The notes under the pieces: model-generated
The model's input: the letters and a program-made list of their open reading frames with translations, nothing else
The model's database searches: none
Told to the model about the DNA's origin: nothing
Made by a program: the position numbers and the translations under genes
Source of the DNA: Pocillopora verrucosa
Lineage: Eukaryota; Cnidaria; Anthozoa; Scleractinia; Pocilloporidae
Assembly: GCF_036669915.1 (NCBI RefSeq)
Contig: NC_089321.1
Coordinates: 19,528,770-19,592,769 of the forward strand
Length of the DNA stretch: 64,000 nucleotides
Direction of reading: 5' to 3'
Shown here: positions 2,044-60,030 of the stretch, piece after piece
Layout: every line of letters begins with the position of its first letter
Numbering within the stretch: position 1 is the first letter of the stretch

Positions 2044-2562
2044 TTAAAGTATTTTACAAGTGGTCCCTCGATCACGCAATGGCCGTTTCGGACCTTCATC
2101 TTTCAACTGTTCGTCATCGACTAGGTTCTGACCGATGATGAGTGCTAGATCATAATATTCCTTCGCCTTTTCCGGATCACCAAGTTCGGTATGAACGTTA
2201 CCTAGGTTATTGTAAGTGGCTGCAACGTGGACATGCTCAGGTCCAAGTTTATCCAGATTAATGGCCAGTGCAAGATCAAAATAATCTTTAGCTTGCTCTA
2301 GTGAATTGGACATGAGATAAACAATACCCAAGTTATTGTATGTAGTTGCCACATCAATATGTTCAGGTCCGAGCTTCCTCGTTCGAATGGCCAGTGCACG
2401 ATCATAATAGTCTTTCGCTTGCTCTAGATTTCCCAATTGTCGAGATACGTTTCCTAGGCTGCCATAAGTAGCTGCGACATGAATATGATCAGGACCAAAT
2501 TGTTTTAGACGAATTCTCAGGGCATGATTGTAATATATCCTTGCCTGCTTTGGATGACCCAA
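2044..2562 (-). pseudogene. Severed C-terminal TPR block of the HEPN-STAND gene
   Basis: This reads as about three and a half TPR units spaced 42 residues apart, of the kinesin-light-chain type (repeated ATYNNLGNVHTELGDPEKAK-like units), then a basic tail ending in CKIL and a stop. The open frame begins at a TTG with no usable ATG nearby. It is the direct continuation of the gene upstream: the codons HS (784-785 of the upstream protein) should join ELGHPKQAR here, but a short insertion separates them. After the insertion this block is in another frame, so it is probably not translated. A splice that removes the insertion was tested and fails on frame. Confidence 0.8.
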
Positions 2563-2565
2563 TTC

Positions 2566-2655
2566 ACTAATTTAATTTAATTTAATAATAAGTTCTTATA
2601 TAGCGCATTAAAATTGAACTCTATGCGCTTTACAATTACAAAAGATTTCAGACTA
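2566..2655 (-). mobile_element. Short retroposon insertion with target-site duplication inside a TPR codon array
   Basis: About 82 bp of foreign sequence is bounded by the 4-bp direct repeat ACTA on the plus strand (2566-2569 and 2652-2655). Read on the minus strand it holds a GCGCTATATAAGAAC core, then TTATTATTA and an (AAATT)n tail. That resembles the 3' end of a truncated LINE or SINE. Insert plus one repeat copy is 86 bp, which shifts the frame and brings in a stop 24 codons later. Family identity is by recall only. Confidence 0.75.
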
Positions 2656-5006
2656 TGAACGTCTCCTAGATTATTGTAAGTAGTTGCTACATGAACATGC
2701 TCATGCTCGCCCATATCGTGAATAATAACCAGTGCAAGTTCATAATAGCTTTTCGCTTTCTCCAGATCTCCTAGGCCAAGGTGGATGTTACCTAAGTTCC
2801 CATAAGTGGCTGCAATATCGACATGCTTGCGTCCTTGTTTTTTCAGTCGAATAGATAATTCACATTCAAAGCACTTTTTTGCCCGATGAAACTCGCCAAA
2901 GTCTTGGTGAATGGTACCCATGTGAAAATTGGCGATTGCTGCATCAACACCTCTAAAACGCTTATCACATTTGGTGATTTCCAATGCTACATGAAAGTAC
3001 TTCTTCGCTGTATAAAAATCCAAATGGTTTTGGGCCACTTGCCCAAGATTTCCAAACATGCCTGGAAGACCCTGAATGTTAAACAATTCCTCTTTGAGGA
3101 TTTTGGGTAGTTTCTCTGTGCAGAAAAAGTCTTCAGTTTTCAAAATGAAGGATTTCAAATGGGGAACAACTTGCTTTCTACTAGAAATAGAATCATGTTC
3201 ATCAGAATTTATGCGTGAACTGTCGTTGATAAATTCGTTAAATGACCTTAATGCTCCACTCACGGCTTCAAGGCTCTTCTGCTCTGAAAGCTCGTTCATT
3301 AGGGCATTAATTACCTCATGTACAGCATAATGTGTGCGAATATAAACACCACTCTCCTCCTCGTCTAGCAACAGTAACGAGCACCTTTGAATTCTCAAAC
3401 TTATCACCTCACGTGTCTCCGTTTCTTTATCTGCAGCCAGAAGGTAATCGATCGCAAGGTCTAGATGCACGGGTTGCATTGCGCAAAGGGAGAGGAAAGT
3501 GAAAACATGACTAAGAATTCTGTCAGATGCCACCATCGTCTCAACGGCTAACGATATTGCTGTGGTCATGGACTTTTGGTAGCATGGGTTGGTCTCAGCA
3601 AGAATAGCCTCAGTGGTACGCCGTTGGCCTTTGCTCAGTTTCCCGAGGTAATCGTTCCAGCCAATCTCTGCAGTTGCTTTGTTACGTCGCACCTGCCTTA
3701 GATAGGTTGCAGCGCTTGCGAGGGCAAGTGGCTGATAGTTCAGAGCTTGGGCAACTTCATTCTCCATTCTATCGTCAGAGAATCCAGAGAGGTTGGCTAA
3801 TAATGAACAAGCATCACGAGGCTCCAAGCCCTCGCTTATAGAGACATGTTCAATAAAAGAGCTTGTGAAAGGGATGGATGCAGTGTCCTGCGTTGTGATT
3901 AATACCTGTCCTCGCACCCAACACTCATTTGCGGGAAAATGAGCATGCATAGAAGACATGCTCGTCACGTTGTCGATTATTAGAAGCCAAGAGGAAAAGA
4001 GCACCAGTTTTGGAGCTACTAACGTTTTTAGGTTAGCGATCTTCTCGTCCGTGTTAAAATCCCTGCAGTAGAGAGTGTTTGTAATCGCGTATTCCGGGCA
4101 CTTAAGTTGTCGAGCAAAAGTAACATACGACTCTAGAAGCGCGGGTGAGCTTTCAGCATTTACTGTCATAACAAATGAAGGAATGTCGGGAACTTTTTGG
4201 GCTTCATCGAAATATCGCCTAGCCACAAGACCAGCCAACTGAGATTTTCCACTTCCAGGGTTGCCTGATATGTACAAGTAAGTTAAACAGCTTTCATTAG
4301 TTTTCTTCAGCCATTTAAGTTTTTGCGTAATTTGAACAACTTCACGGTCACGATTGGCGAGGTCATGTGAGGGTTTTGGAGGGAGAAAACAAAAAGAAGA
4401 AATGTCTCTCTGTAACTGATCTTCCAGGACCCGTCGCTTTTCTTCTATCTCTTTCAGTTCCATTTCAAGGTCGTCGATTTTTGTGAGCACATTTCGTAAT
4501 TCGTCAGTACGAAAACTTGTCTGATTTCTGAGACCTTGAATCTGCAACGTAGAAAGACCGAGAGCTTGAAAAGCAGTTTGCACTTTGCTGATGGCACCCT
4601 GAAATTCCACGTCTGTGAGTTGACCTCGTGGCATGTGCGCAAACTGTTCGTTTCGAAAATTTTTGAGATCCTGTACATTTGAGTAGACAGTCGTGCTCAG
4701 ACTGTAGATACAGTCGGAGAAGAGGATGGCGTAAAAAAGCATTGTGCAGTCCCATTCAGCTGTATTCCCATCAATCATGGTGGCCAAAAGCCGGGAATTT
4801 CTTTTTTGGTTACGTGGGGATTCCCCATTATAAAAGTCCAATCCATTTTTGGGCTCATCTTTCCATTCTCCCTTTGTTGATTTATAGCGGTTGTCCCATT
4901 GTTGTTTAAAGACTGTTCGCAGACCATCTGCCAAAACATCAGTGGTTATGTAACAGATTCTGTAGTAATTAAGCTGTTCTGGGGAGTATTCTGTTACGCA
5001 CGCCAT
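2577..5006 (-). CDS. HEPN - P-loop STAND ATPase - TPR protein (NLR-like), truncated in its TPRs
   Basis: An 809-residue single-exon frame with ATG at 5006 in a good context. Residues about 10-150 form a DZIP3-like HEPN domain with the RNxxxxH motif (R118, H124), the RNase signature of HEPN folds. A coiled coil follows (about 165-205). The ATPase has Walker A GNPGSGKS (248-255), Walker B LLIIDN (341-346) and a QPLALASAATYL motif (425-436) like the NB-ARC GLPL element. TPRs begin near 650 and break at residue 785; the last 24 residues come from the inserted retroposon. The family is expected to be a cytosolic sensor: ligand binding by the TPRs, NTP-driven assembly, output through HEPN. This role is inferred from architecture. 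The truncated protein may be non-functional. Confidence 0.85.
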   Translation of the reverse strand: MACVTEYSPEQLNYYRICYITTDVLADGLRTVFKQQWDNRYKSTKGEWKDEPKNGLDFYNGESPRNQKRNSRLLATMIDGNTAEWDCTMLFYAILFSDCIYSLSTTVYSNVQDLKNFRNEQFAHMPRGQLTDVEFQGAISKVQTAFQALGLSTLQIQGLRNQTSFRTDELRNVLTKIDDLEMELKEIEEKRRVLEDQLQRDISSFCFLPPKPSHDLANRDREVVQITQKLKWLKKTNESCLTYLYISGNPGSGKSQLAGLVARRYFDEAQKVPDIPSFVMTVNAESSPALLESYVTFARQLKCPEYAITNTLYCRDFNTDEKIANLKTLVAPKLVLFSSWLLIIDNVTSMSSMHAHFPANECWVRGQVLITTQDTASIPFTSSFIEHVSISEGLEPRDACSLLANLSGFSDDRMENEVAQALNYQPLALASAATYLRQVRRNKATAEIGWNDYLGKLSKGQRRTTEAILAETNPCYQKSMTTAISLAVETMVASDRILSHVFTFLSLCAMQPVHLDLAIDYLLAADKETETREVISLRIQRCSLLLLDEEESGVYIRTHYAVHEVINALMNELSEQKSLEAVSGALRSFNEFINDSSRINSDEHDSISSRKQVVPHLKSFILKTEDFFCTEKLPKILKEELFNIQGLPGMFGNLGQVAQNHLDFYTAKKYFHVALEITKCDKRFRGVDAAIANFHMGTIHQDFGEFHRAKKCFECELSIRLKKQGRKHVDIAATYGNLGNIHLGLGDLEKAKSYYELALVIIHDMGEHEHVHVATTYNNLGDVHSLKSFVIVKRIEFNFNALYKNLLLN

Positions 5007-5191
5007 ATTTGGCTTGAAATGATCTTTTAATGAGTTGCAGGCCTGTAAATAATAAAAAAAATAAAAGTAACTTTCCTCGAAGTTTAACCCTGTTGTGATA
5101 TCTGGCGTGCATTAAAAAGCGTTTAATGGGACTAACACTTTGTGGGTTACTTGTTAGTTGTGCCAGGTAACTGAAGAAAACGAAAAAGTAA

Positions 5192-25304: not shown

Positions 25305-27158
25305 TTACAAGACTGAGCATTTTTTCTTGTTCCCAGCAGGGGCTGAAGGCGCACCAGCAAGTTCATCATCACTCAAGTTTCCCTTCTTACAGTTGTTAAA
25401 AAATCCTCTGAACACCTTCACTGAAGGACTCTGAGCATAACAGCGAAATCTCGAAGATAAAATTGACCTTGTAATAAGACTCTGAGTATTGTTGTCAGAA
25501 TCATACAATTCAATCAGTTTGTGATCAAACCTCCTTCCATTGTGACGCTTTTCTTCTTTACAGAAAGCATGGATCTTCCCGTCAATGATTAAGAGCTTTG
25601 TGAAAGAACCAGGTCTAATTTTCAAAGTTTTGATGAAGTGCCATTCATTTGTTGTTTCATCGTACAATTCACACTGGCAGTTTTGTGACACCTGATGATA
25701 TTTGCTGATATCCCCTCCAAAAATAACAATTTTTCCACTTGTTGCAGCCCCCGAGGCCCACTCCCTAGCTACTTGAATATTTGCTAGTTTCCTCCACTGG
25801 TTTTTGTCAAAATCGTACCTGTCAACTTCATTAAGGTATTTGCGCTGGTCTCCATCCAACACAAAACCACTAACGAAGTAGATGAAGTTTCCTTGAGCCA
25901 CAAGGCAAAAACCTTGTCTTAAATCCAGATAATCAAATGACGCAATGTCATGCCATGAGTTTGATTCTGGTTTGTATTTGGTAATGTAGGAGAGATGTTT
26001 GTTCTTGGGACAAAGAGGGTGTGCTCCACTTACTCGTCCACAGCAAAGAGGTTCGTGGGACAGAAAGCATGGCACTGAAAGCAGAGCATATATTTCGTCT
26101 CCATTCGCAACAAATATTTCTCGGACGTATCTGTTTTCGTGGGTCGATACCGGTGATGTCCAAGTGTTACAGTATGGGTTGTAGCCGACGGTAACTAGTT
26201 CCCAGGAATCTTGTGCAGTCGGTCTGACTTTCGTGCTGTACAATTTATCATGGCAAGGAAAAAGATCACGCAAAGTGCCAAATTCTCCACAACGAATCTT
26301 GCCTAGCGTAACCCAGTCATTCTCAACAGGAAAATAACACATTAATTTGTTCTTATCACTTATCACTATAGCAGAAGTCTCAAGAGACTTTCTGGGCTTG
26401 AAAGGGAGATTCTCAAACTTTTTACAGTCAATCATATTGATAGCCTCATTAACCAGTTCTAAACAGTCTCTGTTGCTTTTCACCAAATCATGTGTCACTA
26501 CATCATTGCATAGAAAGTCACGTGATATGTAAACCAATCGAACGTGACGAAATATCTCAGCGAAATATCTTTCTCGATTACCTCTATCAAATTCGATCCA
26601 CGTCAGAACAAAGTTAAAAACATCTTCTTCGGCGTCAACGCAAAGCTCGTCACTTGAAAGCAAATTTGCAATTTCTGTGTGCGCCATACTCAAAACAACT
26701 TCACGTTTAGCATTGTAGATGGCGGGAAAGTTATTATGGATGAAATGCTTGGTTTTGGAAACAAGTTCGCCGCAGTGATATCCTTCAGCAAACCGAAGAG
26801 TTGAGATACAATTCGAAATATTCATTTCCGTTTTCTTTAGCAGAGCCCGCGCAGCAAATGTTTTCAGGTTCTCAAGGAATAAAAAATCTGCAATCACAAC
26901 CAGGTTTCGGGCATCGTCTTCCTTTAAAATCTGAACCCCACCGGTGTAAATAAACTTTAGTGTGTTTCTCATTACAGACTCGGTGAACATCTCCAACCGA
27001 ACTACTCCTTCTTTAGCCTCTTTCATGTCGCTATTCAGCAGCTTTTCAAAGAAAGGACTTGCTTTTGAAAGAATGTCTTTATGAGCTTCAAGCTCTCCAT
27101 CTTCGACTACCAAGACAACATCACACGCCTGATCCAATGTTTCTTTTGGCATAAACAT
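25305..27158 (-). CDS. Intronless BTB-BACK-Kelch protein with C-terminal CaaX-like motif
   Basis: The first ATG is at 27158 (MFMPKETLDQACDVVLVVED), giving 617 residues. The frame is open upstream to 27236, but only a GTG precedes it there. Residues about 5-110 are a BTB domain (DVVLVVEDGELEAHKDILS, SPFFEKLLNSDMKEA, LKFIYTGGV, ADFLFLENLK). BACK follows (about 115-215). A degenerate Kelch propeller spans about 270-575, with units around YNPYCNTW, YKPESNSWHDIA, YDFDKNQWRKLA, GKIVIFGGD and YDETTNEWHF. Such proteins are usually substrate adaptors of Cullin-3 ubiquitin ligases; the substrate is unknown. The end, GNKKKCSVL, is a basic stretch plus a CaaX box ending in leucine, which suggests geranylgeranylation and membrane anchoring. 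It lies on the same strand between two parts of the CW-PWWP-ARID gene. Confidence 0.9.
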   Translation of the reverse strand: MFMPKETLDQACDVVLVVEDGELEAHKDILSKASPFFEKLLNSDMKEAKEGVVRLEMFTESVMRNTLKFIYTGGVQILKEDDARNLVVIADFLFLENLKTFAARALLKKTEMNISNCISTLRFAEGYHCGELVSKTKHFIHNNFPAIYNAKREVVLSMAHTEIANLLSSDELCVDAEEDVFNFVLTWIEFDRGNRERYFAEIFRHVRLVYISRDFLCNDVVTHDLVKSNRDCLELVNEAINMIDCKKFENLPFKPRKSLETSAIVISDKNKLMCYFPVENDWVTLGKIRCGEFGTLRDLFPCHDKLYSTKVRPTAQDSWELVTVGYNPYCNTWTSPVSTHENRYVREIFVANGDEIYALLSVPCFLSHEPLCCGRVSGAHPLCPKNKHLSYITKYKPESNSWHDIASFDYLDLRQGFCLVAQGNFIYFVSGFVLDGDQRKYLNEVDRYDFDKNQWRKLANIQVAREWASGAATSGKIVIFGGDISKYHQVSQNCQCELYDETTNEWHFIKTLKIRPGSFTKLLIIDGKIHAFCKEEKRHNGRRFDHKLIELYDSDNNTQSLITRSILSSRFRCYAQSPSVKVFRGFFNNCKKGNLSDDELAGAPSAPAGNKKKCSVL

Positions 27159-27239: not shown

Positions 27240-30010
27240 AATATATTCACACCGAGCTCAGTATATGCTGACTAATTTTTACACTGCGGAATATTTGTGT
27301 CAGTAGCTTTCAGCTAATCAGAGAGGATTTTTTCAACTGAAACGACCCGTCGATCGCCTTCCTTTGTTCAAAAAAAAGACTCAGTAACACAAATTACTCA
27401 TGTTATTGTGACAAAGAATTGGATGAGAAGGTCAGGCTTCCCACCAAATCCGTATAGGTTCCCTTTTCGAGAAATTATTACAAAATCTAAAACTACCAAA
27501 CTGTGGTGGGGCTATTAAAGTTTTGTATTGTGACATATATGAATATCCTTTCAATTCTTTTCATGAATTCTACCGCAAGTCATTAGTAGTATCAATATGG
27601 CCAAGACGATGTGTAGTATTTTAACCTAGATTGAATATATATATAAAAGTAACAACCTGAAATACTGAGCATTAAATTTTAATTGAATGATCGTGCTCAT
27701 CCACAGCTTGATCAGTTGAGAAAAGCAGGAGATGCAGTTATACTGTCTGCCAATGCGGTTTTAAATAACTTCACTCTGGCGTTTTTTATGTTACGAATAG
27801 TGTTTAACGTGTTCTAAATTATGTTCGCAAAAACGTCGTCGTTGTTTTGTTGCTTGTGTATTCGATTCTTCGTGCTTCGAAGTATGTGTCTTCAGAAAGC
27901 TCGACAGCTATAGCGCATGTGATACATTAAGTGCCGCTCTCGCTGAGAGCAGTCCTCTTGGCCTCCTGTCGAAAAAAAGTTTTGCTTTACATTTTTATTT
28001 TACAAAGAGGGTTTAGGACACATGTTTCATAAATAGTTTGACTGTTCTTCAATCTTCCTCTTTTGCGTCGCTACAAGCCAATAATTATTTTTGGCTAAAC
28101 CACCTATGAACAGCGATCGAAAGTGGAAATTTCAAAGATTTTATCAAGCGCGCTGCGAACGCAATCATATAGCTCACGGCCAGTTCTCTCTTGCTACAAG
28201 TTACAAGATGTATTCAGTCAGTTCACCGACAAAATATGGAAACTTCATCGGAAATCTTATTCATATCAGCGTGATCAGGAGACTCTTCTCCTTGACCTTA
28301 TTTCGCAAATTAAAAATTCACCAATTTGTAAGAAAGAATTCTCAAGATGCAGGCGTAAATCGGGCTAAAAAAGGATATCATTGCATTATTTTTTTTTACA
28401 CCAAAGAGGTCACCGATTGCCCCTTGATTGTCTCAAACTCGCGGGTATCTCTCCAGCTTTCATCTACCAACATCTTGAATACAACGTAAATGATTGTGCA
28501 TGCTCGGTTTGCGCTCGAGTCGAAGTCATTTGCATTATTCTAAAAGCATTATCATTACAATCATTTGATGATATACTACGAGCAATAAATATCATCATTT
28601 AAATCATTTGCGGATTTATTTTATGCAATTAATATCGCCATTATCATCATTTGATGATTTATTGTGAGCAATCAATATCATCATAAAAATCATTTGAGGA
28701 TTTATTTTAAGCGACTGTCACCATTATCATCATTCGATGATTCATTGTGAGCAATAAATATCGCCATTAGAATCATTTGATGATTTGTTGCGACCATTAA
28801 TTTACTCTTGAAGAATCATCAATAAAATCATATGACGATCCGTTGAGAGCGCAACTTGAGATACCAAGAGGTGTTTTTATTTTTCTTTCAGCCAAAAAAT
28901 TATGTCATTCATCTAATAAAAGAAACTCGACGAAGAATAGCCAAAAAAACCCTCATGGAAACAGATTAAGGCTTGTGATTTAAGCAGTACTGATTCGCTG
29001 CTCGCACTCGATTAACAACCGTCAACGATTTCTCAGGTGAACCTACGCCGCTAAAAAACCTTGAAGTCGGAATAGAGTCAACTGAGACTACATGGAACGC
29101 CTCAGGGTTTCTATTGGCGGGTGGATTTCCAGTTTTCGAAGAGTCGATATAACATGACAAGTGGTCACTCGAAGGCGTGAATCGACAACTTTGGCAACAT
29201 ATGCATCAATTTGTCATAAAACTTCAACATGCCTCTTCAACAAATGATTTATTCAAAAAAATTGACAAAAACCATGATTTCTTTAGACACCAAAGGAAAA
29301 CAAATCAGTCTTGGAGATGGCTGCAAACTATGGCAGCTCGTCAAAATCGTCGAAAATAACGAGAACACTTCTTTTAAACCGCTATCTACAAATATTTCCG
29401 GGATCTGTTCGTTCCGAAAATACTCACTGAGGGAGTACAAGTTATAAGTCCGATACATGCATATCACAAATCACAGCTGCTCCATATCTAATGCAACCAA
29501 TGTATTCAAGTCTGCTATCGCTCCTAGAGAATGAAGAAAGGAATAGTCGGAATGAATATATATGTTATTTATCTGCCATTTAGATTTCACAGGGACGATT
29601 AAGTGCGACAGATTTTTTATTACAAAGTGCGACAAAACAGGGACGAGCTCGCTTAAAGCTTAATTTGACTAACCAAGGTAAATGACTTTCAAAATGGAGA
29701 CATCAAAGATAATAATTAAAAGGAACGTGCTTGGGGACAAAATTTCAACTGAATAAATCTTCGAATCATTAAGGGACCTAGCAATTTTTCGCGAAGCATG
29801 CAATAACTTGAAAATAAAATCTGATTAGTACGTCTTAATATTTGTTTGTTTCGTTGCAGAACAAGGGAGCATTACGACAACAATTCTCTTATGCGAAAGG
29901 CTTTGGTTTAAGTGGGCAGACGCCAGGTAACACGACGCGTTTGACAAAGAATCACAGTTCCTCGTTCAAGCAATGTAACGAGAGATTAAATGACACCCGC
30001 TAAACATTAC
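27240..30010. other. Intronic or intergenic sequence with unassigned open frames
   Basis: Plus-strand frames at 28123-28368 and 28381-28602 are adjacent and unusually long for this background, but show no domain. A minus-strand frame at 28966-29160 (ends NQYCLNHKP) has coding-like composition but no clear splice edges. If the CW-PWWP-ARID gene continues to 21154, a linking exon of phase 1 to 0 should lie between 22236 and 30010; I could not find it. Confidence 0.4.
28555..28850 (+). repeat. Degenerate tandem array around ATCATTTGATGATTTATT
   Basis: At least five units of about 50-70 bp carry ATCATTTGATGAT or ATCATTCGATGAT, followed by TATT or TTGTGAGCAAT and ATATC(A/G)CCATTA or ATATCATCAT. 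The units are partly self-complementary (ATCAT/ATGAT), so they can form small hairpins. Confidence 0.65.
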
Positions 30011-33000
30011 CTTCTATTCTGGCCATTTCATCTAAAGTTTTTGTAAGGTCTACTTCCTCGGCAGTTCCGTTTACACCTACAGGCTCTGCGTGAGGAAACT
30101 GTTTTACCTCTTGCTGCTCTCTATTTTATTGAAAAAAAAAAGTGACAGAATTTATGTGGCTGGAAACTTACCTATTAACGATAAGCTTGAATACGCGAAT
30201 AAACTAAGAAAGAAATCCCTTTTTCTGACAAGCAGTGAACCGTCCAGAATCGGGTGAATACGCCAGAAAGGACAGACCCATCCGAAATCTGACGTAAACG
30301 TTTCGAAATCGGACGGAACCGTCCGAAATCCGACGTAATCGGATCCCGTCCAAAATCAAACGGATCTCGTCCGGAATCAGACGGAACCATCTCACTGAAA
30401 AGTCAGAAATAAGATGGAACCGACTCGAAACGTTAGTCACACAGCGTATAAACTAGTTTGGACTGGAGGGAGCCGACTATTGTATAAGCACCGAACTCTG
30501 GCGACTTCATTTTTTGTTGCATAACTCTGGTAGCACTGTCACTGTCATTTATCTGATACCATTTACGTTTAAGCTGTAAAAGTAGTCTGCTTTACGGTGC
30601 GTTAAAAATAGTGCGAAAAGAAGACGTAGGACATTTACAGTAGTTTCGGAGAGCGCGAGGTGATAGAATGAGATTCTCTAGTATAATAAAAATACTTCTA
30701 ACCTGCTCTTAGAGAGTGCATCGCCTTCTTGAAGAGAAACAAAAAGGTACATAAGTTTAATCTTACAAACATCACTTTCTCGAAATTTTACAGCTGAGGC
30801 AAATTCTGTTCAACTACTTTTGTATGTAGTAATAACTTTTTGCATGTAGTAATAACTGCATGTAATATCTATTCCGTGTTTTACACTTAGCAAGGTCACA
30901 CATTGTAAATTATATTTAGCATGCAAATAAAATCTGTTTCTCTCTCGATCTTTTTTAGTTAATGCAGCTCGACTGGAACGCCTTCACCTCCAGGTGATGG
31001 ACGACGTTTCACCGAGCAATCGCTGTTAAAAAAAATAATAACTTTTGAAACTGGAGCACAATAATCGGCATAAGGTATCTTGCTCAAAAATAATATGGGC
31101 TTCGACAGAGAACGACGACATTAATTGTCATCATAATCGTTGAGACTGTTCCTATTTCCCTTCACCCCATCCTACCTCTCCCTACGTTATGCCAAGACAA
31201 CAACGAAATCACCATACCGTTCAATACTTTAAAATCATGCATGGCACGGGTGGGGTCAGTATACTTACCTGTCCGGGGGTAAAGTGAGGGCTCAAGAGTC
31301 AACACCCTTTGGTAATGGCGTATGTTTAAACGAGCTAATATACTGAAAATAAGACTAACGTTTGAAAATTGGGCGCAGTGTATGACATGGTGCTGCTTCG
31401 CCATGAGTAAAATGGAATTGGAGAGAACCAGAATATCAACTTTCACTATGGACTGTAGTTGACTGTCCTTATTTTCCCTTGCCCCTTCATACCTTCACTT
31501 ATGCTTTGGAACGACAACACCGTACAATGCTCATAACTCACGCATGACACGGGTAGGGGGAGTACACTGACCTGTCTGAGGGTAAAGGGAGGGTTCAAGC
31601 GACAACAGTAATCTCTCCAGCTGTTGAAGTTCTCGCTCCGCTGCTTCGCAAGTGGAACTTGTGCTTTCGTCATCTGTTTTTTAAATGTACAAATAGTCAG
31701 TTTACGATACACTATGAGAGTTGAACATTAAAATAATACACAACGCGGTCTCTCCTAACACCTGGGTTATCCACGGTCAGACCGAACTTTCTAGAAATAA
31801 AGGGAATCGTACAAAATTTGTCGGACCTATCCACGATCTTATAGCACCGACCGAGATTATACGGAACGATCAAAATTCGGATGGAACTATCCAAAGTCTA
31901 CTTATCTATCTAAAATTAAACGAAACCATTGAAACAATTTCACGCTTTACTGGGGTAAGCCTGGTTTCTATGAAATACCGGAAACAACAACAAAACTGGA
32001 ACATTTTGTATGGGTACAGTGCTTAGGGTTATTAATTTATTCAAGATATATTTTTGTTCATAACGACCACCGAGAGAAAAAAAAGAAAAAAACACAAAAG
32101 CAAAGTCTGCAAACAGACATAAATACAACAACTGACGTAAGTAACAACAGAAAACAAACAAACAAAAAAAGGAACAGACTTAACCTCGGAGAAAAGAGTG
32201 GCTGTATGGGAACTACGACCCAATGAACTTCAGAAGCATCTTTGTTTTATTATCCTCCAGAATCAGGAGATCTCGATTGTCATATCAGCCGAACAATTTT
32301 TTCCGTTTTTCTAATTAATACTTTCCATTTTTTATACAAAAAAATATCAACAAGAAAAGTGAATACAAAAATGGACCCCAAATGCACACTAGAAAAAAAA
32401 GCAAAACAAAGAAAGAGACAAAACCAACAGAAAATCGATAAGAGCAATGATCGATCGATCTCATAAATTATGACCACATTTTAACCGCGCTGGAAAAATC
32501 ATCCATCTAATGATTTATCTCGCAAACAAATTGCTTACCATCGCTATCAAAAGAACAGCCACCAAACGACTGGTGAGGGGAATCTGGGTTCGAACTGGGA
32601 ACCTCATCCCGACCCGCCTCCCTTGTTAAAAGTGTGCATGATTGGAAAGCTGCAAAGAATTAAAAAACAAAACAAAACAAAAAACAAAACAAAAAACAAA
32701 ACAAAAAACAAAACAAAAAACAAAAAAAACCAAAACCAAAAAAAACGAAAATGTAAGGATTACTATCAAACAAGATCATATCACGGCTTAACACAGGAAT
32801 AAATTCGCAAAATTCCTATCGGCAAGTAGTCCTTGTACAGGTCCTGAATGGGCATGTTGTTTTGGTTTTTGGTCCAGAAACTTCTCTCTCTTTTTTAACC
32901 GCCTCACCCAACGGAGAACTGTCAAGGAAACCTGATGAAATGCTGTGAGGTTTATCCCCTCAACCCGGGAGTGTAAATGGGTAACAGAGAACTGCCAGGG

Positions 33001-36000
33001 AAACCTGATGAAATGTCGTGGGGTTTATCCCCTCACCCCGGGATTGTAAATGGGTAACAGAGAACTGCCAAGGAAACCTGATGAAATGCTGTGAGGTTTA
33101 TCCACCTCAACCCGGGAGTGTAAATGGGTAACAGAGAACTGCCAGGGAAACCTGATGAAATGCCGTAAGGTTTATCCACCTCAACCCGGGAGTATAAATG
33201 AGTAACAGAGAACTGTCAGGGAAACCTGATGAAATGGCGTGGGGTTCATCCCCCTCAACCCGGGAGTATAAATGGGTAACAGAGGATTGTCAGGGAAACC
33301 TGATGAAATATCGTGGGGCTTATCCCCCTCAACCGAGGAGTGTAAATGGGTAACAGAGAACTGCCAGGGAAACCTGATGAAATGGCCTGGAGTTTATCCC
33401 CCTCAACCAGAGAATATAAATATGTAACAGAGAACTGTCTGGGAAACCTGATGAAATGGCGTGGCGTGGGGTTTATCCCCCTCGACTTGGGAGTATAAAT
33501 GGGTAACATAAAATATGGAATTGAAATCACTTACCCCTATTTACCATTGCGTCGTTCGCATTTTCACGATTGTCAAGATGTTTCGTCGAATCTGCGTTTT
33601 GTTTGTGAGTTGCATGGGAATTCTGAGGAACCATCTGTTCGCCTGGAGAGAGTAACAACAAATTGGATGTCACGGTTTTGAATCTTGAAAAAAATGAGTT
33701 CATCAATGGAAACCCGCTTTAATCTTTCCCATATTAGAATTAAGCCATCTCTTTTCTGTTTTGGTTCGTACTCAACTTCTTTTTTTCTTATAAGGTTATT
33801 GTAGAACTTTAGAGGCCGAATGAATAGCGCATCTTAATTTAACGGATCATTACAAAATTTAGCCAAAACGTTAATTGGTTATTAATGCGCCAAAATTAGT
33901 GAGGTTTTTTCGATATTCCAAGTACTTTTTCCTTTACGCCTCCTTAAGTAATGAAGATCGGGAAATGATTCATTCACAGAGTTTAAAGGAGATTCTCTAA
34001 GGGGAATATCGAAAAAGTCAAACTCCCTTTTGCAGAACAACAGCTGATTTCACTGCGCGGTTTATTGGTCGTGCGTGCAAACAGGAAGGCAGGTAATTCA
34101 ATTTAGTGCACAAATTTGTGTTTAAGGGCTTACGTGCGCTAACAAATCGTTAAAATAAGAATTAATTCTGATCATAAATTTATTTTCCTTTACCATGACA
34201 GACAATTTTCAAAAACATACCCCTAGTGGTCGACAGTAATCTTAACAAGAGACGAAAATTTACTCAAAATATGGTGTTGCAGTCCCTTCACAGCAACGTA
34301 CCTTCGTCCACAGCTGACGAGCAGGAAGTCCTTCTCCACTGGCAGACTGGTTTACAGGTTGGCCACTTAGCCTGAGATGGCGGTCTGGTTACATCGTCTA
34401 AGACAAATTGGAACTTTTGAGAAATTCAAACAGATAAGACAAAAACCGAACGTGGTGAATGGGCGTCAGTCGAAGTCAAGTTGATAAGAGGAGGTCAGAG
34501 TTGAATCACAAAACCAAAAACAAAAAAAAGAAAAGAAAAGAAAATGAAATAAATAAATTAAATGAGATGAGATAAAAATTTGCGTACCACTTGTCTTTTG
34601 ATTTCTAAGATGATGCTCAAAAGGCATCAGATATCTATAAACAAAAAAGATCTAGGTGTTAAAATCGTCAACGCAGTATTAACAACAGAAGTAGAGTCTA
34701 TTCCTTTATCAATCATGATAACATGTACATCTATTGTGTTTCCTCGTTGATTTGTGTGCTTGATCGCCTAATTTGGCTCGATCATCGTTCGGTCGTTTTT
34801 CGTATGTCCACCCTTTAGTTCCCTCGTTCCCGTCTTGCTGTTCGTGTGTTTTCGTTCGTCCATCCCCTGGTTCTTATTGAATAGACGAGGGAAAGAATTC
34901 AAGGATGGAAGGAAGACGAACAAAAAAATCAAGAACGGCGAACTGAGGGGGAGACAAAGATCGAATGAGCCAACGATCAAATAAATGAACGAAAGAATGG
35001 ACGTAAAAAATGCACAAGGGAAGGAGTGCGGGGAAACAAATGAATAAGAGCAAGAAGGAACGAAGTTTCGAATAGACAGACCGGCGGGGGGGGGGGCTGA
35101 CAAACTGTAGAACGAACGAAAGGTAAGTGGTCTAAGATTTCATTTACTTACTTTTGGTAGAAAACTTGTGTAGGCGTGCTTATTCCTTCATATATCTCAT
35201 TCAACTCTACCAACTCGTTATACAATTCGTCCCACAATCTGCGTTGACAGACCTGAATGTTATTGCAGATAATGAGTCATAAATACAAAACAGACAAACA
35301 GAACAAAAAAGCAACAATAAATCCCCTGACTTATTCCTGATCTCAAATAATTTTATCTTTCTCTGACTTTCTCCAGAACTGTGACAACCATGATTATTTT
35401 AAATTACGATCCTTAGTTTCCTCCTTGAGAAAAATGAAAAATAAATAAACCAATAAATTTATTACGTTCAATTGTAGGTTCTGAGCACTTTGCATGCATA
35501 GACGTGTCGTGTCACCTCGTCAACCGGGAGAAAAAAATCGCATGGTGCGAACCGATGACCTTATAAAAAGTGTTGGGAAGTGCAATTATTTTAAAGCCAC
35601 TTTCGTTTAAATGCGATTTCGCGCAACTGTTTCAATTTTTTAGAAAATCAATAATCGTGAGGAAAAAATGGGAAAATTCATATTGTTCAGAAATATTGCA
35701 ATTTAATCAGCATTAGTCGTCTCAAACTTGGAAATGTTGATCATTTGATCACGCTTACTCCACTTTTGGAGTCTTTTCGCATCACGACCCTTTCTTATCC
35801 GTTGAAAAGTAAACAAGGTGACATAACATGTTTATGCACACCGCCTGCTAGTTTACTTTTTCAAATCCACCACGTTGCTGAACCAAGTTGTAGAATCTAA
35901 ACAGATTGATGCTTTTTCCTCGCCAGACTGGTGCTCTGGGTAAAGTGACTCCTCGCTCTGATGAAAACGCCTGCAGACGCTCCAGGAATTCTTTTTCCTA

Positions 36001-39000
36001 CAGTCAGAAAACAGTAAAATTGAGAAAAAAATACTTTTTACCCAAAGACATCAGCTTACGAGCCAGAAGAAGCCATCTTGCTGGAGCTGCTCTCTCTACA
36101 TCTCCAGACTGCTCTATTTTTGTAGCAATGGCTGCTTCACTCCAGGTTCTTAACCCCTGCACCCCATTCTGTTTCTAGACTGTCCTTCACCACGTCTCGC
36201 GTGGTCGTCCTCATATTGATTCACTTCATAAGCGGTCACAAAAAGACAAGTCTCTTATCTCACATTACTTTCACGGGAAGTTTAGAAGTAAGCTTCGACT
36301 TGGAGTAATTGATTCACGTTTCCTGACTTCCGTTTTAAAATATGCAACAAGTGCCATTGCCCACAAGCGCCAGGTTTGAACTTTTAGGCGGGGTTGTTCG
36401 AAGCTGGATTAAGATAACCCAGGATTGGTGTGAAATCTGATCTCAGATCTGAAAGCTTTAACAACAAATTCAGTATAATTCTTTTTGTTTAGGATATTGT
36501 TATTGGATGCTCTTTAAAGAATAGAGAAAATTTTCCCAAAAAGGCTTTTGATCAAGGGAATAAAATGACCCGAAATTAAAATTTAACCTTGGGTTTGCGC
36601 TAATCGGCCTTCGAACAACTAGGCCTTAGGACTATTTCTTGATATTTTGTGGAAAAATATTTTGATATTTTCTGCAACGTGCAAAAATTCTTTCCCCGCA
36701 AGGGAATTCAAATATGTATTACATTTTTGAGATAGAAGAAAACAAAAGAGGAACGAAAAATTCATTGAAAGAGCAAGGGTGACTAAAAATGGAGAAAATT
36801 GGTATTACATTATTATAAATCTGTTATCCTTCGTCGCAATCATTACATACCTTCAACTCTGGATTTGCCAAGCATTCTTGCTCGACACCAAAGTGCTCAC
36901 TCGCCATTAAAGGAATCGTCGGAGAGTTCAACGGAGTATCGGTTTTACGGCGTGCGGGAATTTTGGCGGGTACCTTGACTCTTTCAGCTGGAGCTGTTCT
37001 CTCCAAGCTAACTGCAACAGGGCTGGGTTTGTCTTCCTCTGTAAAATGCGTTCAAGGAAAACGAAATATGAGATGAACTTTTACCTCGAGAGCCCTCAGT
37101 AATGCTCGAACCAACTAAGTTGCGAGTTCGTTTCCAACGTCCTCTCTCTTCTGCTGGAGAGATTGAACCCTGGAAACGAAGGATCGTTTCATCATCCCAC
37201 TAAATTGCTACAATTCATGTGGATTCCTCTATGTTCATGATTTTAATCATGATCAAGCCCAATTTTCTCTCTGCTGAATGTCATAACACGTTCAAAACTT
37301 ATTGCAAAAATTCAGATAATAAAAATATCTCTTAACTTAAAAGTATTGATTTCTCAAAAAGATTACAGAAAGAAAATCGTCACTACAATACGGTCTGGCA
37401 CATTAGTTTGAGATGCCTTTATGAGAAGATCGTCATTGAGGAGAAGTGTGCTCCAAAAATCACACAACTTTTATCCCCACCATTAAGTACAGCAAAAAGC
37501 GTACATGACACTGACCTTGTTTTGAGGGGTCCAAAGAGGAACCGAACCGTTAGAAAATTCTAATCAAATGTGTAAACATCCTGCTTTGGAGGCTAGTATG
37601 AAGAAATCAAGTCCCACTATTCCTTTTCCAAATCTTGACAAACTGTTTGAACAATAAGCTACTCAAAAAGGCATTCTGGACTCAAATGGCGTTTTTTGGC
37701 ACTAACCATAACGAAGGCTTTTGGTGAAGCACGCGTTAAAGTTTTGTTTTATGGTTTAAAGTTTTATGCAATCAGGTTACTGTGTAGTTTTTTTTTTTAA
37801 TGGTGGTATCTATAGCCGCATTTTTAGGAGATTTGACGACAATTTCCGATTGCCTAGGTTACTCTTTGAATTCTCACAAAGTTTTCACAGCGATGATAAA
37901 AATTGCTCCAGTCTACAGGTTCCTGGGTTGTATTCTCTCCTCAACATCAAAGCAAAATTTTAGGCATATCACTTCAATGACTCACCCTCAACATATTTGA
38001 AGTGACACGTCTCTATCCTCTCCTCTGCAGTCGTGTTAAGGGAGCTCTGTGCTTCCTTGAGCGCAAACTCGTACGACTTTTTGAGTTCAATTAATTGCCT
38101 TCCCTGAATCTTTCTGAATTGAGGAACCATCTTAGTCTCGTTCATGGAGCGCAGCGGATGCACGCGGGCTGGCACTAGCCATGCACGTGAACGAGGCTGA
38201 CCAAAAAATTCTACGTGATAATGGGTGATTTCATTCTCTTTGTCCAGCGGTGCGTCGTAGTACTCGCCGCAAGTTGGATCACGGGTTAGTATTCCTGGCC
38301 AACTTGTTAAAAAGAAAATTAAATAATGAGCTGGACGAACAAGAAATCTCCGAAAATTACGAAACAAAGAAAGGGTGATAGATATCATAGACAGGAACAA
38401 GAAGTTGGTTCACTCAAAGACTCTACACCAGGCCTCTAATACCACAACCTACTAGCCAGTGGCTCATTAACAACATTCAAATTTGTGAGAGCACTTCCTT
38501 CCGACCGCTGGGTCTAGATGTCGATTTCCCGACCTGGGGTTTGTATGTTTGAGAACACGTAGTCGTTGAATCTCGTCCTTGCTGAGAGAATTTCCACCAG
38601 GTTCTCTAGTTTTCCTTTCCCTGTTAAGAAAATCAGGTCCCAGTTGTTCGAAGGTTGGATAGCGCTATCCACTTGATAAAAGTCTATCCGGTGGATAACA
38701 CCATACGTTTTGCAATCACTTATCCGCTGGATAGCGATTGATTCGTTGGATAGCGTTAACTACCCTTTATACAAATGGGCCCAGAACTGGTACCAGAACA
38801 TTTCAATTCGACCTAGAATCAGGTACTAGGCTTTCGTCTAGTTGAAGCTTGCTCACTTCTCATCGCCTCTCGCTGAGCTTTTGCGTTCAATGCAAGTTCA
38901 ATCAGTTAAAGGAACAATAATAGTCGTAAGCAAATCAGTTAGACACTTACGGCGGGTAACCCGACAATTTAGCCATGACCACTTCTCCCTGGGGAAGCAG

Positions 39001-39288
39001 ACTGTATATGAATTTCATATGCTTGGGTTTCTTGGCTTTCTGTTCCACGGCGGAGCAGTTGTTATAACGCGTGTCACGATTGAGCCAGCAATACCACGCG
39101 CTGTCCCCTAAGCCCTCGGCTTCTTCGGCTGAAATTTGGCGCCATTTTTGACAGCTCTCGCTCTCGCACTGGACCCAGATGGACACCGCGTCTTCGTCGT
39201 CCCTAGGCTTCACAAAAGCAGTGGACGAGGGAACCCTATTTGGGTTACACGAAGACCGCTTCCACACTCCGCGCTTTCTTTTCGGCAT
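30011..39288 (-). CDS. CW zinc finger - PWWP - ARID chromatin reader (ZCWPW1-like)
   Basis: Exons: 39288-38951, 38302-37986, 37038-36851, 35997-35857, 35252-35152, 34634-34588, 34397-34302, 33642-33535, 32649-32539, 31673-31572, 31334-31269, 30727-30703 and 30120-30011. All have GT-AG edges and fitting phases, giving 583 codons; the 3' end is probably at 21154. The CW finger (about 37-82) has C41, C46, C67, C78 and W38, W49, W65; it should read H3K4 methylation. The PWWP (about 99-200) has SGYPPWPGIL and YHVEFFG and should read H3K36 methylation. An ARID (about 282-372) has FLERLQAFSSERGVTLPRAP, LFRFYNLVQQRGGFEKV, LWDELY and YLMPFE. The rest is polar and low in complexity, with a leucine-rich coiled segment. 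CW plus PWWP is the ZCWPW1 pattern, a PRDM9-linked meiotic reader in mammals; the ARID is not part of that protein as I know it. Confidence 0.88.
30230..30425 (+). repeat. Degenerate short tandem repeat around CCGTCCGAAATC
   Basis: Roughly 20-bp units of the form CGTCC(G/A)AAATC(A/C)GACG with heavy drift, intronic. A similar but more decayed array is at 31750-31930 in the same gene. Confidence 0.6.
31140..31675 (-). repeat. Tandem duplication carrying an exon
   Basis: The segment near 31450-31620 and the one near 31145-31320 align through an intronic part (ACGGGT(A/G)GGG, CACGGGT, TTTTCCCTTGCCCC-like runs) and through the exon ends, which encode LEPSLYPQTG and LEPSLYPRTG, each followed by a GT donor. 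Both exons are phase 1-1, so both can be spliced in without loss of frame. Confidence 0.75.
31750..31930 (+). repeat. Degenerate short tandem repeat, relative of 30230-30425
   Basis: Units of the form CGATCAAAATTCGGATGGAA and CTATCCA(A/C)(A/G), heavily drifted, in an intron next to the duplicated exon. Confidence 0.5.
32666..32745 (+). repeat. A-rich microsatellite (AAAACAAAAAAC-like)
   Basis: Repeated AAAACAAAACAAAAA units directly upstream, on the transcribed strand, of exon 32649-32539. There it gives a T-rich run that may serve as an extended polypyrimidine tract. Confidence 0.85.
32914..33508 (+). repeat. Minisatellite, 8 copies of a 73-75 bp unit
   Basis: Units start at about 32914, 32987, 33060, 33134, 33208, 33282, 33356 and 33430. 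Each carries GAGAACTG(C/T)C, GGAAACCTGATGAAATG, GGTTTATCCCC, CAACCCGGGAGT and TAAATGGGTAACA. The last unit has a 5-bp internal duplication (GTGGC). It fills most of the intron between exons 33642-33535 and 32649-32539 and stops about 25 bp short of the 5' splice site. Confidence 0.95.
34760..35100 (+). repeat. Low-complexity stretch rich in CGAACG and GAAGGAA-like words, with a G-run
   Basis: TCGTTCG and GTTCGT words on one side and GAACGAA, GAAAGAA and GGAAGG words on the other, ending with a run of about ten G near 35086-35096. The long minus-strand open frame here has biased, proline- and serine-rich composition and is rejected as a gene. Confidence 0.6.
36389..36625. mobile_element. MITE family B, 237 bp
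   Basis: Ends are inverted repeats GTTGTTCGAAG and CTTCGAACAAC, with GATAACCCAGG and ACCTTGGGTT just inside, flanked by the direct repeat TTAGG (36384-36388 and 36626-36630). I recall this family as abundant in coral genomes. It lies between exon 3 and the first ARID exon of the CW-PWWP-ARID gene. Confidence 0.7.
38636..38782. mobile_element. MITE family C, palindromic (GGATAGCGCTATCC core)
   Basis: Starts GGTCCCAGTTGTTCGAAGG and ends AAATGGGCCC. The interior alternates GGATAGCGCTATCC, TATCCGGTGGATAA and TATCCGCTGGATAGCG, so much of it can fold back. It lies in the first intron of the CW-PWWP-ARID gene. Confidence 0.7.
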
Positions 39289-42200
39289 TTCACCCAGGAG
39301 AGTTCAAGTTGTGCTGTAGGAAAAGAGCAAAGCTTGATCAGATTTTGGAGCAATTCGGGATTTCTGTGGTTTTGCTTGACTTAGTTCTTTGATGGGTCTC
39401 CAACCAATCAGATTCTTAAAATCAAATTTGGTCACCCGTATTTTCCCGCGCTTGTTTCTATTTTGAGTTCCTATTGGCTCCTTAAGACTTTTCTTTTACG
39501 ATGTCACGTATTCTAATTACCGCATAAATATAACAACTGGAATCTCGGACATTCCCTTATATTTGTCTCATCCTTCAATCTCTTGGTAAATTGTTAAAAA
39601 TAAGTTTCATTCGTGTTCAAGCTCATGGAATTGGTTCAGAGATTTTTCTGATCCGTCCCGAAAAGCTCATGAACTGCTCTCCGAACAGGTACCGAACTCA
39701 ATCCGAACAGTTTCCGACCTATTCCGAGGCAGTTAGTTATATGATGACCCTAAAAATTAATGTAGTATTGAATTTTTGGAATACGACAACGTGCAGGGGC
39801 AATTAAGAGGCCAATGATATTCATAAATACAGCGTAAAAGGAAAACGGCGCTATTTTAGCGGAAGAAAATACCAAACGCATGAGTCAAGTATCTGATAAC
39901 GTACCAGCAGGATACAGGTCGATACATGATTTGAATGCTAAACAAACTCTTGCAGAGCTCGTTAAGTATTAGAAAATTAAGCCCTTTCAGGAAGGGCCTT
40001 AACATCGCGTCACACATCTAGATTTAAATGTTAAAATAAACTCGATATTACTTCAGCGAAATCATACCTCAAAGCAATGTAATGTAGAGTAACATGATCA
40101 AAAGCCAATTTGCGTACCAGTTTGGTAAGATCAAAAACCTCCGTAATTGTTATGATATGACATAAAGGAGCGAAGGCGATTAAGGATGGAGAAATTTGAC
40201 ACAGATTGCGAATTGCAAATTTCAGAAACTTAGATGCACACTAAAGCCTTTGTTCCCTTGGTTTAGGAAGAATTATTCTGAGCTAAAGCTGACGGCATTC
40301 GAAAGGGAAAGGGCATCACGATATTTGATCAACAGGATTCATTTTCTCGTGCCACTAACAGACGTTTTGCCTGATGATCCAGTCAGAGCAATACTAAAGG
40401 TCACTCGCAAGATATCATGCCGCATTGTACATGACATTACGGAATCTAAGAGCGTCTTGATACAGCAAACGAACGTACAAATAACCGGGGTTTCAATTTG
40501 CACAAACAGGAACATCAATGCGGTTTCCGCTTTAAAACAATCTAATCCAAGCTCTAACCGGTAAATGCTTATTTTCCTGCCTTTTGCAAGAAATCTGAAA
40601 TCGAAACGCAAATGAACTTTATTGCCATTAATTATGTTCAGTTGTTCCTTCCTTGAAAGCAGGAACAGGACGTCGAATGTTTCTCCATTGTCCGTCGCCA
40701 GGCACTGTCACCAAGATTAGTTTGTTGAGGAACAAACTGCTATATTTAGATGATGGTACTATTTATAGAGATTTGGCGCACGAAACCTCTTAGTGAAAAC
40801 TTCAAGACATTCGAAACAAAAAATTGCAGTCAAGATTAATAACAAGATAAATGCAAACAGCCTCTTTCGCGGAAATTATTCAAGGGTACCCAAAGAGATT
40901 CAATTTCACCTCCGTAATATAAGCGGGTTACAGAAGAATCTATTTTCAAACTTAAAAATATCACAAAAAGGAGATTTTACTAATAATTAAAAACAAAGAT
41001 TAGCACATGAAGGAACTACTTGGCAGCTTTTATCTCAATGGTGACGCTGTATTTCACCCTCTGGAAAAACTCCTTGAAAAACCGCCCTGAACGGCATAAT
41101 AAAGATAAATATATCGACATTCAAAGTGATGCTCGCGGGGTTAAAGTTGACAATCCATGCAAGACAATAGTAATAAAGCGACAAATAAAAATGGATTTAA
41201 ATACAGGACCGCGGAATTCTGTCCACGAAAATAAGAAGAAAAAAAAAAACGAAAACAACACGCATTTTATAATGAAATTGACGTAAATATCTGTATGCAG
41301 CAGAACTTTGAGGCGTAGCGGACTCCCACGCAAAAGCCAAAGCCGTGTCACTCGCACACGTCGATAATAAATAACTAAATTACATCCCCCGTGAGTAGTG
41401 TGAGTAGTCAGTTTCTGAGCGAGCTTGCTTTAAAAGTGAATCGCAATATTTATTGCGACTACAGAATGAACATGTCAAGCACTTTTATTGTTATTCCCTG
41501 ACAGAAAACAAATAATACCGCATTGTACAGTCGTGATGAACTCGCTGAAGCGAAGCCGGCAGTAGTAGGTATATTTCACATTGGACGTGCTTCAGAGAGC
41601 AGATTACGTGTTTCCTGCGAAGGAGGATATTACGTCTTCCAAACTGAACGTGTTTTGAATTTTCTATACTTTACAGTAAAATTACTGCGACACAGATTAA
41701 CAAAAGAATGTGGGTTTTTTGACTTATGGATTTGAAAATATTTTCGAAAAGTTCTGCGTTAGGCAATGTCTTTTTAGTAGAGCAACAATTCAAAAGTTCT
41801 AAAAATATCTTGAGTAAAAATGTAGTAATACGAATTTTGAAGAAAACACTTTCGCGTTTCTGTTCAAAAGAATGGTTAAAAAATGAAGCTTTCGATCGTC
41901 ATAACAGTAATGAAATGGGATTAGACTCGATAAATTTCTATTGCTAACAAAAAGTCATGACAGTTTCCAACACGAGGTCATATTTACAGCGAGAATACAT
42001 TTTGCAAATGAGTAGCAGTTCATGCAATATACCGTGCAATCCTGTTGTCTAGGGCTCGCACCTGCAAATCATTCATTCTATACCCTTTAACATTTCAGTA
42101 GAACATACAATTAACCAAGCATTGTCAAACAACATTGTCTTCTAGTTCCATGGTTTTCATTTCCGCGACCGGAAACAACTATGTTCCCTTGGATCTCCGC

Positions 42201-58810: not shown

Positions 58811-59680
58811 TTACTCAGAAGCTGGATGCACAAGCTGGGTTCTTATTCCAAATACAAACGTCCTCATTTCTCTTTGCCTGCAACAGTAAATAATTGGATT
58901 GACAAGAGAGTTTAACATTACGCACGTTTGCCTCGATCTTCTGCTGATGGGGCAATTATTAAGAATGCCTGAAATTGAACCGATAGAACAGAAACTAAGA
59001 GGAAGAAGGCAGATAATAACAGCACCAACCACTAGCACAGTTGTCTTTAGCGCCTTGTTCTCTTTGGTAAATCTTTCTACTTCTTCTTGGGGCAATTGCT
59101 GTGCTTTTATCTTCCTTTGGTGGCGACGGGTTTCATGATACAAAATCATATAGGTGAAGGCGACGAAAACGATACATGAAAAAATGACGAGGACTAACAT
59201 AGAAATGAAAACTACACGAAGTTTTACTGTTCTTAAAATTGCAATTGCAATAGCAGCTAACCAACATACTGTCACGGCTATCTTTATATTATTGTGAGTT
59301 ACTACGTTTGAGTATTGCATCGCAAACTTGATCGCTATGAGCCTCTCGAAAGTAACCAATATCAGATGAAGGCATGAGACAATCAGTAACACAGACATGA
59401 CATCGATATGGAAACCTTCCACTGTTTCGCTGCTTTTGAGATTAAATAACTCAAATAACCTCCACAGGATATACAAAGATTGGCCAAAGAGACCAGTCAA
59501 TGCGTCAGTCACCGCTAAACAGGCCAGCAAGATGTTGCTGTTGGTTTGGAGTCGAGGTCTTGTTTTCACGGCCTTTATTACGAGGACGTTAAGTAGAACT
59601 GTGAAGGGAACACTGATGCTGTTGATGATGATAATGATAATGTGACCAGCCTCCCATGAAAAATTTGCTGTACTAGCCAT
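58811..59680 (-). CDS. Class A (rhodopsin-like) orphan GPCR, intact
   Basis: An uninterrupted 289-residue single-exon receptor starting MASTANFSWEAG at 59680, with seven hydrophobic segments. Landmarks: N31 in TM1 (LLNVLVIKAV), D60 in TM2 (LAVTDAL), an ERL triplet at 112-114 in place of DRY, CLLP at 224-227 in place of CWxP, and NPIIY at 261-265. The second intracellular loop carries MQYSNVVTHNN; a short third loop carries IKAQQLPQEEVERF. N7 fits an N-glycosylation site (NFS). The ligand is unknown and the subfamily cannot be named from sequence alone. It belongs to a same-strand cluster with broken paralogues on both sides. Confidence 0.93.
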   Translation of the reverse strand: MASTANFSWEAGHIIIIIINSISVPFTVLLNVLVIKAVKTRPRLQTNSNILLACLAVTDALTGLFGQSLYILWRLFELFNLKSSETVEGFHIDVMSVLLIVSCLHLILVTFERLIAIKFAMQYSNVVTHNNIKIAVTVCWLAAIAIAILRTVKLRVVFISMLVLVIFSCIVFVAFTYMILYHETRRHQRKIKAQQLPQEEVERFTKENKALKTTVLVVGAVIICLLPLSFCSIGSISGILNNCPISRRSRQTCVMLNSLVNPIIYCCRQREMRTFVFGIRTQLVHPASE

Positions 59681-60030
59681 TGCTGGAGCGTTTGTAGCGT
59701 CTGTTTTGAGGCTCTGATCGACCCACTTTTATCTCGAATGCACATGTTAGCCATTATTGCGCCTGAAGTGCAGTAATTCCTAATTGAATGTTAGATTGGG
59801 TTGTCAAAGTTGTTTGACATGGCTAACTTAAAGTGTAATGAGAATCAACTCAAAAGCATAGATCGACTCTTTCAGAATTAGCTTGTTAAGTGCGATTTGA
59901 TGTTCATGTACATGTGTTTCCACTTGACTTTTTCTCGCGTATGTATCCATTGTATAGTTGACGAAGTTGTTCGTTTCGTTGGAAATCACAAAATATGAGT
60001 TTGGGTTGATTAGAGGAAAATGAAATAAGT

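Follow-up and report, generated by a model that had tools for sequence, protein, structure and literature searches.

Can a reader of histone marks carry a DNA-binding domain of its own? The question is raised by a locus of the coral Pocillopora verrucosa, which lies in a stretch of 64,000 nt (contig NC_089321.1, positions 19,528,770 to 19,592,769 of the forward strand; the whole stretch is called "the window" below, and its first letter is position 1). On the minus strand of the window, consecutive exons encode a CW zinc finger, a PWWP domain, and an ARID domain, and a preliminary description of this DNA had assigned them to one gene of the ZCWPW1 type. The present analysis strongly favours the single gene and places its CW finger closer to ZCWPW2 than to ZCWPW1.

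Three domains in one predicted protein

The six exons that had been proposed (39288-34588, minus strand) are indeed all open, have GT-AG borders, and are joined in phase, yielding a product of 377 amino acids (aa). A profile check of this product with Pfam placed all three domains above the curated cut-offs: the zf-CW at aa 38-83 (46.3 bits versus a cut-off of 27.5, E-value 4.2e-12), the PWWP directly after it at aa 101-197 (51.6 bits versus 25.6, 1.4e-13), and the ARID, which had been described as a full fold, at aa 282-368 (69.8 bits versus 24.1, 2.8e-19), with a match that spans positions 2-89 of the 89 of the profile. The CW, PWWP, and ARID domains are arranged in that order within one predicted protein, encoded by a chain of open, phase-matched exons. 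The CW finger has the four Cys (C41, C46, C67, and C78) and the three Trp (W38, W49, and W65) that had been noticed before, and W68 in addition. The aromatic positions of the PWWP are present as well (Y111, W114, and F145/F146); their role in an aromatic cage is established knowledge and is also treated in a study of ZCWPW2 (PMC8892340).

For the ARID, the nearest solved structure is that of Dead ringer (52 bits), followed by ARID3A, ARID5B (44), and ARID4A (43). Membership in the ARID4 group was rejected, as Pfam found neither a Tudor nor a chromobarrel domain, the features of ARID4, in aa 1-377 (E-value ≤1) or in aa 376-578 (E-value ≤5) of the extended protein described below. The first intron within the ARID lies at a codon boundary after GG-x-x-[EK]. 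A GT is found at that boundary in five of the five N-terminal ARID exons detected in the genome (the window, L002, L003, L004, and L006), as GTA in four of them and as the weak donor GTT in L002, so that the ARID seems to share the exon layout of its family.

The gene probably extends past exon 6 through seven further exons to a TGA. The full model (39288-29471, minus strand) has 13 exons and 12 GT-AG introns with compatible phases, reaches its stop at 29471, and encodes 578 aa. Exons 7-13 were selected by eye; the criteria were an open frame, GT-AG borders, and a fitting phase. At the other end, an in-frame stop lies closely upstream of the ATG of exon 1 (frame 38947-39303), and 471 bases scanned past the stop codon contain a single AATAAA, which begins at 29253. 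The predicted tail, aa 378-578, is acidic (37 D+E versus 18 K+R residues) and has no significant match in Pfam or the Protein Data Bank (PDB). The exons of the model are as follows:

Exon 1, 38951..39288, minus: start codon, basic N-terminus, CW finger (aa 38-83), and first part of the PWWP
Exon 2, 37986..38302, minus: remainder of the PWWP (aa 101-197) and the region beyond; ends in phase 1
Exon 2b, possibly optional, 37085..37153, minus: 69 bases, in phase 1 at both ends, AEERGRWKRTRNLVGSSITEGSR; codon signal not distinctive
Exon 3, 36851..37038, minus: linker that shifts phase 1 to phase 0 and connects the PWWP to the ARID
Exon 4, 35857..35997, minus: first half of the ARID; contains no Met and has a TAG in frame at the acceptor, hence unable to start a protein by itself
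Exon 5, 35152..35252, minus: middle part of the ARID
Exon 6, 34588..34634, minus: end of the ARID (YLMPFE) and tail
Exon 7, 34302..34397, minus: predicted C-terminal region, phase 1; chosen by eye
Exon 8, 33535..33642, minus: phase 1-1; chosen by eye
Exon 9, 32539..32649, minus: phase 1-1; chosen by eye
Exon 10, 31572..31673, minus: phase 1-1, Leu-rich stretch ELQQLERLLLSLEP; chosen by eye
Exon 11, tentative, 30703..30727, minus: 25 bases; chosen by eye
Exon 12, 30011..30120, minus: chosen by eye
Exon 13, tentative, 29471..29523, minus: stop codon TGA; no distinctive codon signal; chosen by eye

A version of exon 2b that begins at an earlier AG was rejected, because it runs into a stop in phase 1. 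Intron 8 of the model contains an array of a 74-base unit in 8.1 copies (window 32910-33508).

The codon usage of the exons was compared with that of stop-free intron windows of the same length. The training set consisted of one gene of the window together with the longest open frames at six loci, among which L003 and L005 overlap, while the intron windows overlap one another and were taken from both strands of 11 introns, i.e. all but the intron between exons 6 and 7. The codon signal of exon 3 exceeds all 423 stop-free windows of its length. For exons 7, 8, 9, 10, and 12, only 0.2% to 4.4% of the windows score as high, and the corresponding fractions are 10% for the 25 bases of exon 11, 28% for exon 2b, and 43% for exon 13. 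Codon use thus supports most of exons 7-13.

One gene or two

Exon 4 lacks a Met and has a TAG in frame at its acceptor, and it must therefore be spliced to something upstream. Exon 3 is needed as a connector between the phase-1 end of exon 2 and the phase-0 start of exon 4, and the donor of exon 3 (gtatgt) is good and has the phase that exon 4 requires. On these features of the sequence, a single gene with the architecture CW-PWWP-ARID is highly probable. The same locus could be read as two adjacent genes, i.e. a short CW-PWWP gene with exon 3 as its last exon, followed by an ARID gene that starts within intron 3. Read-through from exon 3 does meet a stop within ~30 bases (the frame ends at 36824), so that a retained intron would end a CW-PWWP protein at this place, and the ATG at 36214 offers a candidate first exon for the ARID gene, with a moderate phase-0 donor (GTG/GTGAAG). 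That donor is the best one reached from the 13 ATGs of intron 3, and no ATG there is followed by a phase-0 donor that fits GTRAGT. A start of its own for the ARID exon was rejected, given the missing Met, the in-frame TAG, and the lack of any consensus-like first exon in intron 3. Furthermore, the 853 bases of intron 3 contain neither AATAAA nor ATTAAA. Together with the good donor of exon 3 in the right phase, these observations make two genes improbable. An intermediate solution is a single gene that yields alternative products: retention of intron 3 would give a short, ZCWPW-like protein, and its removal the long CW-PWWP-ARID protein, while exon 2b might be included in some transcripts and skipped in others. 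The stop soon after exon 3 and the fact that exon 2b preserves the frame are compatible with it, the lack of a polyadenylation signal in intron 3 speaks against it, and we regard it as rather unlikely.

Several observations weigh against the single gene with 13 exons. Exons 4-6 are without a marked codon signal, as 7%, 29%, and 37% of the stop-free intron windows, respectively, score as high, and these exons consequently rest on the match of the hidden Markov model of the domain. Exons 4, 2b, and 13 each have another frame that scores higher, for exon 4 slightly so. The agreement of phase between exons 3 and 4 would, by itself, arise by chance in one of three cases, and the agreement among exons 7-13 is not independent evidence, because these exons were chosen by eye to hold the frame. 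Lastly, the missing AATAAA in intron 3 is weak evidence, because AATAAA is present at seven other places in the span of the gene.

ZCWPW2-like, ZCWPW1-like, and PRDM9-type genes in the genome

To which family does the gene of the window belong? In comparisons with solved structures, the nearest of all CW proteins is ZCWPW2 (4o62), with 54 bits and 25 identical residues among 48 aligned, while ZCWPW1 (2e61) reaches 25.3 bits. The genome that was scanned comprises 353 Mb in 52 contigs, with the window on contig C10. The zf-CW scan yielded six matches from 12 scored candidates, five of them above the cut-off, and revealed a further CW-PWWP gene, located on contig C9 (G000:C9:10,995,000-11,000,356, minus strand; L020, L024, and L025), the CW of which lies near 11.0002 Mb. 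For this gene, the values are reversed, with 43.5 bits for ZCWPW1 versus 20.4 for ZCWPW2. Its next exons, read by eye, encode a PWWP interrupted by an intron whose codon position and phase (GYP-X, phase 2) equal those in the gene of the window, and a long C-terminal exon of charged character probably follows. A small home-made profile, which does detect the ARID of the window, found no ARID in the surrounding 19.5 kb, nor did the genome-wide ARID scan (six matches from nine scored candidates) place one at this gene. Thus, the ZCWPW2-like gene of this genome appears to have an ARID, and none was detected for the ZCWPW1-like gene, where both names denote similarity of the CW finger to solved structures, not position in a tree.

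A search of the genome with the whole protein (E-value ≤0.01) gave 12 matches, 10 within the gene itself and two weak PWWP matches elsewhere, but no second copy; this search was not exhaustive, because it missed the CW-PWWP gene on C9. Relatives in a collection of prokaryotic contigs (17 pattern matches) and in viral contigs (seven) were confirmed in no case, as expected for such collections.

The assignment to ZCWPW1 that had been proposed was consequently rejected, as the CW finger is nearer to ZCWPW2 and the gene on C9 is the better candidate. In favour of a true ZCWPW1 orthologue in the window, the order of CW and PWWP is the same, and a CW-PWWP protein of Nematostella was grouped by its PWWP with human ZCWPW1 in a 2012 survey of PWWP genes, the main text of which does not contain the word ARID (PMC3457860). 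With the opposite evidence from both CW fingers, we consider such an orthology very unlikely.

The genome was also scanned for PR/SET domains, which gave 45 matches. The best is located on contig C13 near 4.107 Mb, in an exon that matches PRDM9 structures with 91 bits, ahead of PRDM14 with 70 bits. In the corresponding gene (G000:C13:4,105,446-4,111,843, minus strand; L026, L034, and L035), downstream frames contain 12 C2H2 motifs (11 and one) with closely similar fingers, and further finger-like stretches occur in other frames. Two N-terminal pieces of the gene gave nothing above the Pfam cut-off. Searches for KRAB and SSXRD found nothing in the genome and none in the control genomes either, so that they neither demonstrate a complete PRDM9 nor speak against one. 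By sequence, a PRDM9-type writer and two CW-PWWP readers seem to co-occur in this coral, and among them an ARID was detected in the ZCWPW2-type reader alone.

Separately, ten matches to the C-terminal PR/SET exon were observed within ~79 kb on both strands of G000:C4:30,487,317-30,566,119, which represents a tandem expansion of PRDM-type genes. Other features of the window are a BTB-BACK-Kelch gene in a single open frame directly downstream of the CW-PWWP-ARID gene (25305-27158, minus), frames with TPR repeats and a weak, below-cut-off match to a nephrocystin-3-like N-terminus (2047-5111, minus), and a rhodopsin-type G protein-coupled receptor (58814-59728, minus). Elsewhere in the genome, 74 matches to the green fluorescent protein (GFP) family are found on G000:C1 in two clusters, at about 0.67-0.88 Mb and 28.36-28.79 Mb, in line with an anthozoan.

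Proposed function, ancestry, and known counterparts

The mark bound by this type of CW finger is H3K4me3, and PWWP domains of the class in question hold H3K36me3. The aromatic positions are kept in the protein of the window, for which binding of both marks is predicted. In the proposed mechanism, the CW finger would hold H3K4me3, the PWWP would hold H3K36me3, and the ARID, 85 residues beyond the PWWP, would touch nucleosomal or linker DNA. The protein might thereby dock on nucleosomes with both marks, made by PRDM9, with an extra grip or a preference for certain DNA, and its acidic, leucine-containing C-terminal tail may recruit partners. A precedent for reading both marks is ZCWPW1, which was reported to bind a doubly marked H3 peptide best (dissociation constant 1.7 µM; PMC7237205). 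In our judgement, it is probable that a single gene specifies such a protein, a ZCWPW2-type chromatin reader of ~578 aa extended by an ARID, and that it works in this way.

The contribution of the ARID is less certain. It may be a module for contacts with proteins or for non-specific contacts with DNA, instead of a domain for sequence-specific targeting, and we give this possibility a little less than an even chance. The Arg of the segment that is common to ARID3 (TLR) and ARID5B (CTRR) falls where the protein reads TQV; as it is not kept, DNA binding by the ARID may be weakened, which also counts against the mechanism proposed here. Several ARID families bind DNA without sequence preference. 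On the other side stands the match over practically the whole ARID profile.

The protein would most likely act in the germ line, together with the PRDM9-type gene of the same genome. A Prdm9 whose fingers evolve rapidly was described from Nematostella, a sea anemone (PMC2779102), and a 2026 review restates this for cnidarians and sponges (PMC13186367). In Hydractinia, a gene named Zcwpw1 was described as a marker of germ i-cells that is confined to germ tissue (PMC12172373). In the oyster, both Zcwpw2 and Prdm9 reportedly show high levels in the male gonad at maturity (PMC12111275). According to Mahgoub et al., by contrast, the pairing of PRDM9 as writer with ZCWPW1 as reader arose in vertebrates (PMC7237205). 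A meiotic role of the gene of the window is, on balance, conceivable at somewhat below even odds. The preliminary description had suggested that the locus bears on how such readers found their sites before or alongside PRDM9. The first part is weakened, because this genome carries a PRDM9-type gene and Prdm9 was reported in the sea anemone (PMC2779102); the second part may apply.

A literature search at the level of titles and openings of abstracts yielded no report that presents the CW-PWWP-ARID architecture, which may well sit unremarked in the automatic annotation of protein databases. Term searches did not find the word ARID in the text of three papers on vertebrate ZCWPW2 and ZCWPW1 (PMC8892340, PMC7494361, and PMC7237205).

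The families covered by AnimalTFDB presumably include ARID and not zf-CW; the main text of the AnimalTFDB paper names neither. The oyster study retained Zcwpw2 among the genes with a DNA-binding domain predicted by AnimalTFDB 4.0, and a term search of its main text did not find the word ARID (PMC12111275). If the list of families is as presumed, oyster Zcwpw2 may carry an ARID, and the call hints that the ARID form might be older than corals. Tentatively, and at somewhat less than even odds, CW-PWWP-ARID could be the ancestral form of ZCWPW2 in animals, kept in corals and perhaps in molluscs and stripped of its ARID in vertebrates. If so, the protein that recognises PRDM9 marks in those animals would recognise DNA too, and the handling of break sites would depend on the marks as well as on the local sequence. 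The step from PRDM9-marked chromatin to the machinery of breakage and repair has been called unresolved, with ZCWPW2 named as a candidate of unknown molecular function (PMC8892340). An ARID-bearing ZCWPW2-type protein beside PRDM9-type and ZCWPW1-like genes offers a test of whether the reader needs its own DNA contact or sequence choice. If both assignments hold, the split between ZCWPW1 and ZCWPW2 would predate the separation of corals and vertebrates.

Among known systems, the first PWWP of NSD2/NSD3 is the nearest solved PWWP and has the stretches SGYP-WP, HV-FFG, and RAW in common with the protein of the window, which differs in that Pfam matched no SET, AWS, or PHD domain in its aa 1-377. 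A full ARID is shared with ARID3 (Dead ringer), ARID5, and ARID4; to our knowledge, none of these is a CW protein, and the Tudor or chromo match that would be typical of ARID4 is absent from the predicted protein. With ZCWPW1, the dual reader of H3K4me3 and H3K36me3, it shares the order of CW and PWWP, but the CW finger is clearly less similar. The closest counterpart is the PRDM9-coupled ZCWPW2 of vertebrates, with which it has in common the identity within the CW finger, the PWWP right after it, and the presence of a PRDM9-type gene in the genome, and to which the predicted coral protein adds an ARID and a tail of roughly 200 aa.

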